Of a stretch of 47,580 bases of DNA, positions 8,758-25,404 are shown piece after piece (within the stretch, counting starts at the first letter, position 1; every line of letters begins with the position of its first letter). The notes beneath the pieces are model-generated. The model was not told the DNA's origin. It ran no database searches and was given only the letters and a program-made list of their open reading frames with translations. The translations under genes and the position numbers were made by a program. Origin of the DNA: Myxococcales bacterium (lineage in GTDB: Bacteria > Myxococcota_A > Polyangia > Polyangiales > SLQV01); NCBI GenBank assembly GCA_007131285.1, contig SLQV01000194.1, positions 1 through 47,580 of the forward strand, in the 5' to 3' direction.

Positions 8758-9267
8758 ATGACGCAGACACTAGAAGAGATGGTCGCGGCCAGGCTGGGGA
8801 TCATGCCCCCAGTGGGAGCGGCGGGTTTGTACCGCACCACGTTGCGGTCCGGCGCCCAGATTTGGGTGTCGGGTCAGCTCTCGCTCGCCGACGATGGTAG
8901 CGTTCTGACCGGCCGCTGTGGCGCGGATCTTGATGTCGAAACCGGTCGCGTTGCGGCACGACAGGCGTTACGCGGCGTGTTGTCTCAGGTCGTCAACGTG
9001 GCCAAAGGAACTCCTGCCACTTCGGTGCGCTGTCTAAAGCTTGGCGTATTTATCGCGGCGACACCGGAGTTTAGCCAGCAAACTCAAGTTGCGGACGGCG
9101 CTTCAGAGCTGCTTGCAGACGTGCTTGGCGAAGCCGCCCTGGGGACGCGGACTGCGGTTGGCGTGACTTCATTGCCGAGAGGGGCTGCGGTCGAAATCGA
9201 GGCGGTATTCGAGCTCATGGATCCTCCGATCGAGCGGGCGCGAGCGATTCACGCGCAACGAAGTTAG
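8758..9267 (+). CDS. RidA/YjgF-family protein
   Basis: ATG at 8758 after AAGGTGAAGAG; GAQIWVSGQLSLADDG, AARQALRGVLSQV, GTRTAVGVTSLPRGAAVEIEAVFEL match the RidA fold pattern. Confidence 0.85.
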   Translation: MTQTLEEMVAARLGIMPPVGAAGLYRTTLRSGAQIWVSGQLSLADDGSVLTGRCGADLDVETGRVAARQALRGVLSQVVNVAKGTPATSVRCLKLGVFIAATPEFSQQTQVADGASELLADVLGEAALGTRTAVGVTSLPRGAAVEIEAVFELMDPPIERARAIHAQRS

Positions 9268-9476
9268 GTGCGATGCGTGCTTGAAATGCAGGGGGGCAAG
9301 AAGGCATGTGCTGAGTAAGCCTGCTCGAAGCTGCGGGAGGCGCGTTTGCGCTCCTCGATGTCGGGCTAAGTCCGTCTACGACGACGCTGAGCCCGTCTCC
9401 AAATGGGCTGAGCTTCATATCGTCGGTCTGGGGCCGGTGCCGCTCTCCAATGCGTTCGCAGCTCACCAATTCGGTA

Positions 9477-9549
9477 GTTGAGCCTCTACAGCGCTGGGTT
9501 CGCCGCTGTGTTCGCCGCGCGCCTTCAATCGCTCACGCATGAAGGAAGG
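9477..9549. repeat. Dispersed 73-bp intergenic box, copy A
   Basis: GTTGAGCCTCTACAGCGCTGGGTTCGCCGCTGTGTTCGCCGCGCGCCTTCAATCGCTCACGCATGAAGGAAGG; about 66/73 identical to 47363-47435 in the same orientation. Confidence 0.85.
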
Positions 9550-9686
9550 CCGGGAGGCGCCCAGCGTGCTCCCTCGCCCGGCTGCCGCTGGCGCAACCTG
9601 TTCCTGCACCGTACGGATGCACTTCAGTCGAAGGCTGTCGGGCCCGGAACATACACGACTCTGCTGTCGGTTCGCGGCGCAACGAT

Positions 9687-9714
9687 ATCAGCAAGACGCC
9701 ATCAGCAAGACGCC
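9687..9714. repeat. Perfect 14-bp tandem duplication ATCAGCAAGACGCC x2
   Basis: 9687-9700 and 9701-9714 identical; intergenic. Confidence 0.8.
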
Positions 9715-10024
9715 GCCTCGGTGCTGGTCGTTTTAGGGTTCTCGGCAGGTGCTGCGTCCGGCGGCATTCAAGGGGGCCTCAGGCTGCGGAGCCGAGGCGC
9801 AGGAAGGCAAAGGGCACGAGCCAGCGGCTATCCATGCGCTCCACGAACTTAAGCTGACGCGTATTAGATAGCGTACGTTCGGATGAATACGCGTGGGCTA
9901 AAGAGATAGAGGCGCGGCGGGTTACGGTCGGGTTCCACGCGTGAGGAGCCGGGTATTCAGTCAAACAGTGCCATCTAACGCGTTCCAGGCGCAACGTCGG
10001 CGTTGCTGCGCTAGGCTAGCGATA

Positions 10025-10474
10025 ATGCCTTTGACGCCGCAACATGAAGTGCCCGCTGACCGGACGCTTAAGCTTCCTTGGGAAAGAGGTGAGGGGCTTT
10101 GGCGGCGATATTTAGGCGGGACCTGGTTGCGGCGTTTCGTTCTGCTCGGTGTTCTTGTTACGAGTGCGTGGTTGGGGGCACGCGCGCAGCTACGACGCGA
10201 GAAGACGCGCATCACTCGCCAGCGCCAGCATGCACTGAGCATTGCGATTGAAGGCTTTCGCCTGCAGATCGGACGCTGTCCGAGGGGGTTGGGTGAGGTA
10301 CTGCACCCTCCAGGTGAGCGTGTTGCGTTTTTGTCGTCACTACCCAACGATGGCTGGGATCGCCCCTGGCATTTTCTATGTCCGGCGCCGGGTCGGTTAT
10401 TGGGTTATGAAATTACCTCAGCGGGGCCCTCTGGTGACTTCTGGCTGCCGGATAATATTGACGGTACGCTCTAA
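10025..10474 (+). CDS. Membrane-anchored protein with GspG/pseudopilin-like ectodomain
   Basis: Single TM (FVLLGVLVTSAWLGA), then QHALSIAIEGFRLQIGRCPRGLGEVLHPP...LPNDGWDRPWHFLCPAPGRLLGYEITSAGPSGDFW, resembling the GspG RYPTTEQGL...LPxDPWGNPYxY...SxGADG layout. Confidence 0.6.
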   Translation: MPLTPQHEVPADRTLKLPWERGEGLWRRYLGGTWLRRFVLLGVLVTSAWLGARAQLRREKTRITRQRQHALSIAIEGFRLQIGRCPRGLGEVLHPPGERVAFLSSLPNDGWDRPWHFLCPAPGRLLGYEITSAGPSGDFWLPDNIDGTL

Positions 10475-19324: not shown

Positions 19325-20491
19325 TCAGAGAAGGGTCAAAATCCAGGTCGCGCCCACCCAGGCGCCGACGCTCGACCCAACCCCCGCCGCCAGCGCGACA
19401 AGCATCACTCGCGTGACCTTGTTCGCGTAGACGCCCTTGAGCGAGAGCATGGCTTCGGGAATGCCCTCACAGTCAGCGACTTTGGGCTTCCGCTGCCAGG
19501 CCTCGATGAGGCCGGCGAAGATACCCACGCCAATGGTCGGGTTGAGCGAGGTTATCGGCGAGCCGACGAGCGACACGAAAACAGTGAGGGGTTTGGCGCC
19601 GGCAAGTGCGGTGAAAAGCGCCGCAAACACCGCGTTGGGCAACACCCACGCCAGCAGCATCTCCTGCAAGCCTTGGCCTTGATGCTTGTAGTAGCCCCAA
19701 CCGAACGCGGCGAGAATCGCCAAAGGCGCCACCCACTTGACGATGCGCCACAGCATGCCGGGCCCGGGTATCTCCTCCAGGGAGGCGTAGTCCGCCCGGA
19801 CGCCCTGATGGGTGAGCATGCCTTGCACGTGCGCCGCGCCGACGATGGCGACGATGCGTCGCCCCGGGGCCTCTTCGATCTTCGACATCAAGTAGCGGTC
19901 GCGTTCGTCGATGAGCGGCCCCTTGACCTCGGGCATTGCCTTGGCGAAGGCCTGCATCGCCTCGTTGATGTGGTCTCGCTCCTTCAGCTTCTCGATGTCT
20001 TCGGCGGAGATGGATTCCCGAACAAAAAGCCCGCCGAGCAGGGCAGAGAGCGTCTTGGCCTTGCCAAAAAAGCCTAAGTTGGCCCAGGTGCGCTTCAGGG
20101 TCGCCTGCACCGGCCGGTCCGCAAGGACAAGGTTTCGGTCCCCTTCCCGCGCCAGCTTCACCCCTTCGCGCATCTCAGCACCGGGCTCAATGCCCAGTTC
20201 GTTGGCGATGCGCCGCTGAAAGGTCGAGAGCGCAAGACTGGAAAAAAGGTAGAGCACCTTTTGCTCGCGGATGACCTGGAAGATGTCGAGATTGCGCCAG
20301 TGCGTCGGGTCTTCAAGGGCGGTCAGGCGCATCTGGTCGAGTTCGACGCAGATGGTGTCGGGCTGAACTGCCGCCACCAGCGCCTGCACGTCTTCCACGC
20401 TGCGTTGGCTGACATGCGCGGTCCCTAGCAGGTAGATCTCTCGCCCATCTTCGAGCTCGAGCTTGGTTGTCGCTGACGGCAAAGCTTCCAC
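19325..20491 (-). CDS. TraB/PrgY-family protein
   Basis: REIYLLGTAHVSQRSVEDVQALVAAVQPDTICVELD; IVAIVGAAHVQGMLTHQG; C-terminal hydrophobic region. Confidence 0.88.
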   Translation of the reverse strand: MEALPSATTKLELEDGREIYLLGTAHVSQRSVEDVQALVAAVQPDTICVELDQMRLTALEDPTHWRNLDIFQVIREQKVLYLFSSLALSTFQRRIANELGIEPGAEMREGVKLAREGDRNLVLADRPVQATLKRTWANLGFFGKAKTLSALLGGLFVRESISAEDIEKLKERDHINEAMQAFAKAMPEVKGPLIDERDRYLMSKIEEAPGRRIVAIVGAAHVQGMLTHQGVRADYASLEEIPGPGMLWRIVKWVAPLAILAAFGWGYYKHQGQGLQEMLLAWVLPNAVFAALFTALAGAKPLTVFVSLVGSPITSLNPTIGVGIFAGLIEAWQRKPKVADCEGIPEAMLSLKGVYANKVTRVMLVALAAGVGSSVGAWVGATWILTLL

Positions 20492-20548: not shown

Positions 20549-22024
20549 TCAGTAGCGCAGCTCAAGGCGCGTCGTCGTCACAAACTCCGCGGAACGCCTC
20601 GCCCCCGCTGCTGCGCCGCCATTCGGGAAAATCCATTCGACATCCGTCTGCAACTCAAGATGGCGGTTGAGGTGCCACTGAAAACTGGATGCAAACCCGC
20701 GTGCCCGCGTTACCGAACGTTCCGGGTCGGCGAGCAAGGGAAAAGCATTCGAACCGATGTGCAGCTCCTGGTACCGCAGCGAGATCGTGGCGCCACCCCA
20801 GTCGCCTTTCGCGGGCGCGAAGGGCCGGGTTGGTGTCACACCAAAGAAGGTGTTCTCGTCGTCGGGATTAAGGCTCATGCTGGCGAAGATCTGCCAGGCC
20901 TGATTGGCGATGGTGCCGCTAGCCCGCGTTCCGTCGTCACTCGTCTTCGACACGCGCTGCGCTGACCGCATCCATTCGAAGAACGCCCGAAACTGCCGAT
21001 GTTGCCAGTGGGCCTGCACCGACTGTCGGTCGCGCTGGCCTGCGGCTACGACGCTGCCGTCATCATCGTCAAGCAAGGCAAAAAGCCGTGGGCCTGCCAG
21101 GCGACCGCCCCGGGTTTGGCTGCGAATCGCACTCACCCTGGGGTCGTTTTCATCCCCGGACTCTCTGCCGATGGTCCAAGAGAAACCTACGCCGAAATGC
21201 TTCAGCGCGGTCAAGTCGGGCATCAGACGAAAGGGCTGCACGTAGACCCGGCCCGCAAAGTCCGGCGACGCGCTTAAGCTGAAGTCGACGCTCATGTCAG
21301 GCGCGCCGCTGACCGCAGCGACCTCATAAGAGAAGAGCCCGTCTTGCGTTTGACCCTAGACGAAGATGCCTAAGTCTCGGTTCGGTGCGAGCGCCGTGGG
21401 CCAGCCGCGTTCGACAAAGGGCAGCGCATACGCGCGAGATCGACGTTCGAGGCCGAAGGGCGACTTGAATCCGCCGATACGCAAGTTGAACTCATGAATC
21501 GGCCGCCAATCCAGGTGGAAGTCGTAGGGCTGAAGCGGGTCGATAAGCGTGTCGAACATCACGCGATATTCGAATTTGCCAAAGAAGCGTCCGTCGATCG
21601 TGACCCGCGTGCGGCGCAAAAACATGCCGTACTCGCTGCCCCCATCCGGGTTCGCGCTTGTGTAGCGCGAATCGATGTGTGTGAAGCCGGCAAGGCGCAG
21701 AACAAAAGCGCGGTCGGCTGTGCCCGCCCAAAAACCGAGACCGTCGAAAATACCCAGGTTCTCCGGATACATGCCGGGCAACGTCTCCCGCGCCGACGGT
21801 CCGACGCGCGGGCGCAGCAAGGGTGCGACGTTAACCTCTTGCTCACCGTCCGCGTCCTCGTCCCCCACATCAGCGGAGCCGCCCAGCCAAGCGGGACGCT
21901 GAAGAATCAAGCGTTCCGGAGGCGCCGGCAGCTCCTCTGGGGTGTCGGCGCTAGCGCTGCTAGCCAACGTCCAAAGGCCACCGAGTACAAGTGCGGACCA
22001 AGATCTGAACCAACTCCGACTCAA
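20549..22024 (-). pseudogene. OprO/OprP-type porin copy interrupted by in-frame TAG (21356-21358)
   Basis: ORFs 21356-22024 and 20549-21295 lie in the same frame; together 1476 nt, equal to the intact paralog 22210-23685. The paralog has TAC (Tyr) where this copy has TAG. TTG start. Confidence 0.85.
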
Positions 22025-22209
22025 GCTCCGCTCCGTAGCGCCGCAGTCTCGCGCATGTTCCTAGATCTGGAACCAACGCGCTGAGACTCGCCCCGTTCAC
22101 TTGCTGCGCGCACTACGGCTAGCTGAATGACCTGCGCCTTGGGATGGTTGCCATGATGTGGCTCTATGATGTGACGGGTCATTCGAGGGCACTTCCTGCG
22201 TGCTGCGCC

Positions 22210-23685
22210 TCAGTAGCGCAGCTCGATACGCGTCATCGCCGAAAACTCCGTTGCCTTGTTCGCGCCGCCAGCGGCCCCGCCGCGGGGAAAGATCCACTCG
22301 AAGTCTGTCTGGAGCTCAAGGTGCCGGTTGATGTGCCACTGGAAGCTTGAAGCCACAGCGCGCGCGAGGGTGACCGAGTTTGCGGGGTCAGCGAATATGG
22401 GAAACGCGTTTGAGTCGATATGCAGCTCTTGGTAGCGCAGGGATACGGTCCCGCCGCCCCAGTCGCCTTTCGCTGGCGCGAAGGGCCGCGTCGGTGTGAC
22501 ACCGAAGAAGGTGTTCTCGTCGTCGGGATTGAGACTCACGCTGCCCACAATCTGCCATGCCTGGTTGGCGATAGTGCCGCTCGCCAGCGTTCCGCTTTCA
22601 TCGATTTTTGCCACGCGCTGCGCTGACCGCACCCACTCGAAAAAGGCATTAAATTGACGATGGTGCCAGTGCGCTTGCACGGACTGTCGGTCGCGTTGTC
22701 CCGCGGCGACTACGCTCGCCTCGTCGTCGTTGATGAGCTGAAAGAGACGTTGACCCGCAAAGCGCGAGCGCCTTGCTTGGGATCGTGTGGCCGTCATGCG
22801 GGGGTCGTTCGCGTCACCAAACTCTTTGCCGAGTGTCCATGAGAAACCCACGCCGAAGTACTTGAGTGCCGTCAGCTCCGGCAACAATCGAAAAGGCTGC
22901 ACGTAGATGCGGCCTGCAAAATCGGGTGTTTGGCTAAGGCTGAAGTCGACTTCAATGTCCGGTGCACCGCTAACGGCCGCCAATTCGTAAGAGAAGAACC
23001 CGTTTTGGGTCTGACCGTAGGTGAAAATGCCAAGCTCTCGGTTCGGCGCGAGGGACGTCGGGAATCCGCGTTCAATGAAGAGCAGTGCGTAGGAACGTGC
23101 GCGGCGCTCAAGGCCGAAAGGTGATTTGAATCCACCGATACGCACGTTGAACTCGTGGATCGGTCGCCAGTCTAAGTGAAAATCGTAGGGTTGGAGCGGG
23201 TCGATAAGGTTGTCGAACATCACGCGATATTCGAAGTTGCCAAGGAAGCGTCCATCAATCGTAATGCGTGCGCGCCGCCAAAACATGGCGTACTCGCTGC
23301 CGCCATCTGCGCTTTCGCTGGTGTAGCGAGAATCCAGGTGACCGAAGCCGCTTATGCGAAGTACGTAGGCCCTGTCTGCCGTGCCAGCCCAAAAGCCGAG
23401 CCCGTCGTAGATGCCGAGATTCTCGGGATACATGCCCGGCAGCGTCTCGCGTTTGGTCGCTTTAGAGCCCGGGCGCAAGACGGGAACGCCATCCTTGTTG
23501 GGCGTGCGCGCGGCGTCCTCATCGCCATCATCCGCCGAGCCACCCAGCCAAGCGGGGCGCTGCAGGATTAGGCGCTCCGGAGGCATGGGGAGTTCCGCAG
23601 GCTCCTCGGCGCGGCCGCGACTCTCCCACAGCGCTACAACGCTGAGCATGAGCACCGCGGCCGACTTCGGCACAACCCCGTTCAA
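22210..23685 (-). CDS. OprO/OprP-type (phosphate-selective porin O/P family) outer-membrane porin
   Basis: RRARITIDGRFLGNFEYRVMFD...DFHLDWRPIHEFNVRIGGFKSPFGLER motifs typical of porin O/P family; TTG start with GGAG upstream. Confidence 0.85.
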   Translation of the reverse strand: MNGVVPKSAAVLMLSVVALWESRGRAEEPAELPMPPERLILQRPAWLGGSADDGDEDAARTPNKDGVPVLRPGSKATKRETLPGMYPENLGIYDGLGFWAGTADRAYVLRISGFGHLDSRYTSESADGGSEYAMFWRRARITIDGRFLGNFEYRVMFDNLIDPLQPYDFHLDWRPIHEFNVRIGGFKSPFGLERRARSYALLFIERGFPTSLAPNRELGIFTYGQTQNGFFSYELAAVSGAPDIEVDFSLSQTPDFAGRIYVQPFRLLPELTALKYFGVGFSWTLGKEFGDANDPRMTATRSQARRSRFAGQRLFQLINDDEASVVAAGQRDRQSVQAHWHHRQFNAFFEWVRSAQRVAKIDESGTLASGTIANQAWQIVGSVSLNPDDENTFFGVTPTRPFAPAKGDWGGGTVSLRYQELHIDSNAFPIFADPANSVTLARAVASSFQWHINRHLELQTDFEWIFPRGGAAGGANKATEFSAMTRIELRY

Positions 23686-24174
23686 GCCGCGCTCCGTGAA
23701 GGCGCCGTCTGCCTCAGCTTTCCGTCAATGGCGGTCAATAGCCTGGCGTTGATAGCTGGGCCTTGGGCCCGCCCTCCTCCTGCTAACTGAGCAAGCCGCC
23801 CAGGCGCGCACGACTTGCAGGGGAGTAGTGCATGCGTCGCGGATGGGAAGGTGCGATGCGGCTCTGTAAGGTGACAGATCATGCGAGGGCACTTGGTCCG
23901 AGCGCTTGGTACGCCCGGTGCGCGAGGCAAGGGTTGCTCGAGAGGTGCGAAACCGGCCTGGGTGGCGTAAAGTCAGCCAAAAATGCGTTAATGCGCCTCC
24001 AGCATGCAGAAAGACACAGGCAACCGCAAGGTTTTCTTGCGCGGCACCCACTTGCTACCCCGTGGGTGCATGGGCTGTCCGGAAGGACGGTTTATCTTGG
24101 CCTCAAGCGCATATCGTGGGAATAGGGTGGACGTTGTGTTCGCATTTCGCCCCCTGACCGCACCTCGATGCTCC

Positions 24175-25404
24175 ATGAGTTTGTCCTCCTTCGCGCCACC
24201 CTGGTTCGCGGAGCGCGCGCTTCAGTCTGTCACCGGGGCCGCCGCCGTTGCGCTGGCGTTTTTGGCTCTTTCCTTGGTCGTGTCCCAAGCGGTCGCCGAC
24301 GAAGAGATGCCAGCCGGCGCGATCACGATGCCGGAGGCAAAGAGTGAGTTCGCTTCTAAGCCTGCCGAGCGCACGCTCCACGCCCGGCGCAAGCTTCTCC
24401 ACAATACCTGGGAGGGGCCAAGCGGTGGCTTGCGTATCGTCGACGCGAGCGGCGGCGCAACCGGCACATACCGCGTCATGCTCGGCGTTAAGCTCTTTGG
24501 CGTCAACGACTGGCTTGAACCTGAAGCGCACCATTTTCACGCGGGCACCGTCCTCGCGCTGGCGTGGACGCCGTTGGATTTTCTCGAGGTTTTTTCAACC
24601 ACGACGACGTGGCGCGACTCCATCTATGCTGTCGACCGTTCCTTTTTTCAGGTTCTCGGCGACACGCGCCTCGGCGCCAAGGGATATGTGCGTCCCCTGC
24701 CGTGGCTCACCGCTGGAGGCGACGTTACCCTCAAGGTGCCGTTTAATACGCTTGTCGATCTGAAGCAGACGGGCCGGAGCATGAGCTACAACCTTCGCGG
24801 CAACGTCAGCGTCGACTTGCGCGAGCTAGACCACCGCGCCTCCGTACCCTTCATCGGGCGCCTGAACGTGGGCTATTGGTTCGACAACTCGGCTAACCTG
24901 GTCTCGCGTCTGGAACGCGCCCGCTACGCGGAACTGGGTGCAGATGCGGACCCGGCCGTGCTGCCACCAGGCGAGGAAGACCGACACTTGCTCTCGCCCG
25001 GCGAGCGCTATGCGTTGCAAGTGAACCGCACCGATCGCGTTGTCATCGGTCTGGGTACAGAAATCCCAATGGATGTGCAGGAGATCGCCACGACCTTCAG
25101 CCTGATCACCGAGTGGACCCTCGAACTCCCGGTCAATCGCCAGGGTTTCTCCTGCCCTGAAGGGCCAGGTGGCAACAGCCCAAGCTGCAACGCCGGCGGC
25201 ATGGTTCAGCGCCAGGCACTCACCGTTGGCCTGCGCGTCCTACCGCCTCTGCCAGGCCTGAGCTTATCGCTAGCGACCGATATCGGCCTCGCCGGCACGG
25301 GTCCGGGCGTGCACGCATTCCACGCCCAGGCGCCCTATGCCGTTCTCCTGGGCATCGGCTACAGCTTCGACCCCCGCACCCAACGGCCCAAAGCCTCCAA
25401 ATAA
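24175..25404 (+). CDS. Outer-membrane beta-barrel hypothetical protein
   Basis: Signal-like hydrophobic N-terminus (AAAVALAFLALSLVVSQAVA), beta-strand periodicity, terminal YAVLLGIGYSFDPR. Confidence 0.7.
   Translation: MSLSSFAPPWFAERALQSVTGAAAVALAFLALSLVVSQAVADEEMPAGAITMPEAKSEFASKPAERTLHARRKLLHNTWEGPSGGLRIVDASGGATGTYRVMLGVKLFGVNDWLEPEAHHFHAGTVLALAWTPLDFLEVFSTTTTWRDSIYAVDRSFFQVLGDTRLGAKGYVRPLPWLTAGGDVTLKVPFNTLVDLKQTGRSMSYNLRGNVSVDLRELDHRASVPFIGRLNVGYWFDNSANLVSRLERARYAELGADADPAVLPPGEEDRHLLSPGERYALQVNRTDRVVIGLGTEIPMDVQEIATTFSLITEWTLELPVNRQGFSCPEGPGGNSPSCNAGGMVQRQALTVGLRVLPPLPGLSLSLATDIGLAGTGPGVHAFHAQAPYAVLLGIGYSFDPRTQRPKASK

Follow-up and report, generated by a model that had tools for sequence, protein, structure and literature searches.

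An in-frame stop codon at the same position of a duplicated porin gene in two uncultured myxobacteria, with purifying selection on the reading frame behind it

Tandem porin genes at the locus

The window, i.e., the whole stretch of 47,580 nucleotides analyzed here (contig SLQV01000194.1), comes from a lineage of uncultured myxobacteria and carries a tandem pair of porin genes on the minus strand, termed here up (the upstream copy) and dn (the downstream copy). The features of the locus, in window coordinates and with the basis of each assignment, are the following:

24004–25404, plus strand: gene of a 466-aa protein, divergent from up and located beside up in the sister species too (ORF, synteny)
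22210–23685, minus strand: up, the intact upstream porin paralog, with TAC at the codon matching the dn stop (ORF, profile match, alignment)
22031–22034, minus strand: GGAG ribosome-binding-like site, six bases 5′ of the dn TTG, kept in the sister (inspection of the start region)
20549–22024, minus strand: dn, the downstream Porin_O_P gene of 491 codons plus stop, with one in-frame TAG (PF07396, E 4e-8 if read through)
21359–22024, minus strand: part of dn before the stop, with signal peptide and first barrel strands, 222 codons (ORF, model; dN/dS 0.126)
21356–21358, minus strand: in-frame TAG, codon 223 of dn, matching TAC in up and TAA in the sister dn; the next base is G in both species (alignment)
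20549–21355, minus strand: tail of dn after the stop, with the remaining barrel and the C-terminal ...LELRY, 268 codons (dN/dS 0.097 by NG86, 0.064 by ML)
21293–21295, minus strand: first ATG after the dn stop, kept in the sister species (sequence inspection)
19325–20491, minus strand: TraB/PrgY/GumN family gene after dn, in the same order in the sister species (profile match, synteny)

Both porin frames are 1476 nt long from the TTG start to the final stop (23685–22210 for up and 22024–20549 for dn), which agrees with the original prediction of two adjacent frames of equal length. Each TTG is preceded by a GGAG-type site six bases away. The two proteins share 74% identity and both matched PF07396 (Porin_O_P) above the Pfam cut-off, dn with 33.3 bits vs. 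a cut-off of 20.9 when read through. The replacement of TAC by TAG at 21356–21358, on which the prediction was centered, was found as described: it is the single in-frame stop of dn, and up has TAC at this codon. The rest of the frame is open, as had been proposed, yet its start at 21295 was set too narrowly, as the tail is open from 21355 to its TGA. The neighboring 466-aa protein gave no Pfam or NCBIfam match; a similar-looking frame adjoins a porin in Sandaracinaceae ACE_MYX11 (L058), and thus the porin and the 466-aa protein may work together.

A model of the read-through dn protein, based on a 16-sequence alignment, had 16 strands and a mean pLDDT of 70.9. Its best Foldseek matches in the PDB were OprP and OprO (2o4v, 4rjw). 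These phosphate/polyphosphate porins resemble dn in the PF07396 domain and the predicted 16-strand barrel, but are only 14–15% identical to it. To our knowledge, the OprP and OprO genes have no internal stop. Codon 223 lies in predicted strand six (216–225) of 16, so that the fragment terminated at the stop cannot be a porin: it has under six strands and is devoid of the ...LELRY terminus. The barrel-assembly machinery recognizes aromatic residues at C-terminal ends of this kind. The fragment should be exported and then degraded, without performing porin work.

The internal stop in a sister genome

The genome of the window (G000) has a sister (G001), CSSed162cmB_584, which is filed as Myxococcales bacterium and whose CSSed name points to soda-lake sediment. 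The two are the sole members of their family among the genomes compared, and both are metagenome-assembled genomes (91% and 82% complete). The gene order in the sister matches that of the window (466-aa protein, up, dn and TraB-family gene), spread over two contigs. Comparison of the locus in relatives, as the original prediction had suggested, showed that the sister dn is also 1476 nt long and contains exactly one internal stop, a TAA, at the same codon 223 that is TAG here (...GVYF(stop)GQTKDG... in the sister vs. ...GIFV(stop)GQTQDG... in the window). The two dn frames align without a single indel, and neither has a second stop. In the maximum-likelihood tree the two dn copies formed one clade (100/100) and the two up copies another (100/99), which indicates that the duplication is older than the species split. 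The dn genes share 79% DNA and 83% protein identity, with seven differences in each 30-base flank of the stop. Their dS of 0.94 exceeds that of the neighboring genes (0.44–0.82), which places dn on the fast side, yet as an ordinary ortholog pair.

The residue at the stop site is Tyr in all near relatives, and mostly His, sometimes Tyr, in distant homologs. No further carrier of the internal stop was found among 184 genomes of the order, nor in the viral contigs searched; a search of genome contigs gave, besides the sister MAG, just one homolog, from Sandaracinaceae, which is 51% identical and has Tyr at the site. Within the window genome we screened 757 kb (L121–L140, L171–L190 and the window; 510 predicted genes, 24% of the genome), judging candidates by reading their translations rather than by family searches, and detected no second gene interrupted by a lone stop. 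On inspection, the candidates in this sample read as pairs of neighboring genes (e.g., ilvC-leuA, hemE-hemG, ftsH-folP) or apparent antisense frames.

In another family of the order, one genome (G053; L119, G053:C47, about 8900–10350) has two porin copies ~5 kb apart. The second copy carries a frameshift ~20 codons before the stop site, with both halves otherwise intact. This may be an assembly error, real decay or a parallel case, and it calls for caution in the reading of dn.

Selection on the tail behind the stop

The values of dN/dS were computed separately on either side of the TAG, a check that the original prediction had put forward. By the Nei-Gojobori method (window vs. sister dn), the tail gave dN/dS of 0.097 (bootstrap 0.061–0.144) at dS of 1.08, much like the part before the stop (0.126; 0.073–0.198). 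Differences in the tail were distributed over codon positions 1, 2 and 3 as 42, 14 and 117. Pairwise codon ML estimates were 0.064 for the tail and 0.107 before the stop, and for the tail the comparison with omega = 1 yielded 2dlnL of 207.8. Branch-wise dN/dS of the two dn tails was 0.12 and 0.17, each being constrained. Under neutrality ~14.6 stops would be expected at d = 1 across both tails; we observed none, and no indels. Low dN/dS of the tail, together with the lack of any further stop or indel, indicates that dn is not an ordinary pseudogene. Extra stops, frameshifts and relaxed dN/dS downstream, named in advance as the marks of such a pseudogene, are absent in both species, in which the tail dN/dS is 0.06–0.10. 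Provided that the common ancestor already had the stop, the selection on the tail acted entirely behind a stop codon. An antisense gene as the cause of conservation was rejected, as every antisense frame has stops in both species.

Origin of the stop

The original prediction had considered a sequencing artefact and a very recent nonsense mutation. An error of sequencing or assembly at 21356 might be suspected because window and sister each stem from a draft metagenome assembly. Against it, the two were assembled separately, are 79% identical in DNA here and differ in the triplet that forms the stop at codon 223, which makes an artefact most improbable. A single, very recent mutation is unlikely given the stop at the same codon of the sister and the purifying selection on the tail over the whole divergence. 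More weight has to be given to two independent recent nonsense hits at the same Tyr codon, by which both dn copies would be fresh pseudogenes with a low dN/dS inherited from before. As a duplicate, dn might be dispensable, pairwise dN/dS cannot date the stops, and the frameshifted second copy in G053 illustrates that second porin copies can break. Yet a single base change would create a stop at only 104–111 of the dn codons, and the probability that independent hits in the two lineages coincide on the same one is 0.0105. Per 3000 genes, ~0.001 such coincidences would be expected at the upper bound (from 0 stop-split genes in 509), a figure that a redundant duplicate, possibly more prone to breakage, may exceed. 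Moreover, independent stops need two transversions, vs. one transversion from TAC/TAT and one A–G transition for a shared stop. Since redundancy may make a duplicate easier to break, we retain this explanation, which we regard as unlikely, with a small but real share of the probability.

Decoding of the stop codon

The dn stop codon works normally elsewhere in the same genome. In the 510 predicted genes sampled, TAG is the final stop of 229, TGA of 190 and TAA of 91, and prfA and prfB (RF1/RF2) are both intact and retain GGQ as well as the PAT and SPF triplets. A change of the genetic code was thus rejected. It was also observed that TAG is the commonest stop in the 757 kb sampled (229/510) despite a GC content of 61%, at which TGA would be expected to lead.

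A search for an amber suppressor tRNA, suggested by the original prediction, gave no CTA, TTA or TCA anticodon among the 43 + 36 tRNA genes typed in the two incomplete assemblies. The tRNA-Tyr looks ordinary. The anticodon stem of tRNA-Gln(CUG) in both genomes (L073, L091) is reduced to four pairs by a U31-U39 mismatch; the closest relatives form an A31-U39 pair there. Two other families, for which a protein search found no such porin, show this mismatch as well, and the change is therefore not specific. It could nevertheless be counted, as a departure from the closest relatives in both genomes, in favor of a dedicated suppressor tRNA for UAG and UAA that this lineage would carry outside the assembled sequence. 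Both codons would be read by a single tRNA of the ochre type (anticodon UUA), and the incomplete assemblies leave room for it; that such a tRNA is missing from them is unlikely. With all typed tRNAs lacking a suitable anticodon, UAG and UAA ending most of the sampled genes, so that general suppression would be costly, both release factors intact and the tRNA-Gln mismatch found in two other families, we consider a dedicated suppressor very improbable. Nor does it seem probable that dn now consists of two cistrons, with translation restarting after the stop and the pieces made separately and perhaps assembled. An ATG is present 20 codons past the stop in both dn copies and absent from up, which has ATT. 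However, no Shine-Dalgarno-like site was seen by eye before this ATG and no signal peptide was found by inspection on the second half behind it, which would leave half of an outer-membrane protein stuck in the cytoplasm. Unlike a non-coding gap, the 20-codon stretch that separates stop and ATG shows the substitution pattern of porin codons (differences of 2/0/9 by codon position, P = 0.0014, and 95% amino-acid identity between the window and the sister). This constraint indicates that the stretch is translated in frame with the porin, and the split into two cistrons is, in our estimate, hardly likely.

As to the context of the stop, the 114 bases that start at it fold no better than shuffled sequences (z of 0.42 and 1.56), so no stimulating RNA structure stands out, which favors plain leaky readthrough. 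The bases after the stop, GGT CAA/CAG, equal those of the intact paralog; the G at position +4 is present in up as well and hence is not a special feature of dn. From structure and context, no cis-acting signal of programmed readthrough was recognized in dn. Slippage or ribosome hopping over the stop was rejected on inspection, as there is no homopolymer run and there are no matching in-frame take-off and landing codons.

Discussion

What is observed is a stop shared in position by two species, the orthology of the two dn genes, the selection on the tail and the ordinary function of UAG and UAA as termination codons elsewhere. From these we infer, with a probability of about 0.68, that dn is still a functional duplicate, with a full-length product that would arise only by readthrough at codon 223, at a low dose. 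The stop would have arisen after the duplication and before the species split, and since then it would have persisted through one exchange of TAG and TAA. Most ribosomes would terminate at codon 223 and release the exported fragment that cannot be assembled. In a small share, a normal near-cognate tRNA would deliver an amino acid (in E. coli usually Tyr, Gln or Lys), in many cases the ancestral Tyr, so that the 16-strand barrel would be completed down to the targeting residues at its C-terminus, giving little full-length porin. The stop would thereby act as a fixed translational attenuator of the second porin, low dosage being the presumed benefit. Of the tolerated amber readthrough in the original prediction, readthrough combined with selection on the tail gains support from the comparative data, readthrough itself being inferred; the amber-specific part is not upheld, as the sister stop is ochre and no suppressor tRNA was found.

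A stronger version of this reading holds that selection maintains the stop as such: a long-lived attenuator that can switch between TAG and TAA but not revert to sense, and that sets a low, perhaps condition-dependent, porin dose, i.e., a bacterial ‘pseudo-pseudogene’ older than the species split, with the altered tRNA-Gln(CUG) possibly raising readthrough. This version is tentative, and we are inclined to doubt it. An unselected stop would persist neutrally in both lineages with a chance of 13–33%, so persistence alone does not prove selection for the stop. In Drosophila, olfactory receptor ‘pseudo-pseudogenes’ that seem dead by one internal stop are reportedly functional via readthrough, as shown experimentally and in a tissue-dependent manner. 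The likeness to dn lies in the single internal stop and the apparently dead gene, while those cases are eukaryotic and experimental. The term ‘pseudo-pseudogene’ also occurs in PMC7244557.

In bacteria, many orthologous in-frame stops with dN/dS below 1 have been described, and it was suggested that they lower expression through tolerated readthrough (Belinky et al., 2021; PMC7918605). Most of these cases are short-lived, with no mismatch in a 30-base window in 71% of pairs and >3 mismatches in 4%; one family displayed has dN/dS of 0.73 (PMC7918605). As in these cases, dn has its stop at one aligned position in two genomes and a tail dN/dS well below 1. It differs from them in the seven differences per 30-base flank, dS of ~0.9, tail dN/dS of 0.06–0.10 and the changed stop triplet. 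We conclude that dn is of the same kind, but unusually old and located in an outer-membrane protein gene that has been duplicated. The residues that E. coli mostly inserts on misreading UAG and UAA are Tyr, Gln and Lys, and readthrough increases there if a G follows the stop (PMC11126739). Both dn copies share the UAG/UAA stop and the following G with that system, in which basal readthrough was followed with reporters and proteomics, but no conserved arrangement inside a gene is involved. Among the papers searched, none on a porin with a readthrough stop was found.

Internal stops are routinely read as proof of a pseudogene, yet dn has kept its whole frame under strong selection over a species-level divergence despite one, in a genome in which that stop functions normally. 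With published bacterial cases being mostly short-lived, a long-lived one allows a test of nonsense codons as stable, heritable dampers of expression. If the proposed reading is true, automatic pseudogene calls lose functional outer-membrane proteins.

The intact up copy (22210–23685) showed a synonymous divergence of 0.17–0.35 between the window and the sister, far below that of the neighboring genes and dn, and its 5′ and 3′ parts differ in dS. The low and uneven values are perhaps due to recombination between species or to strong codon constraint.
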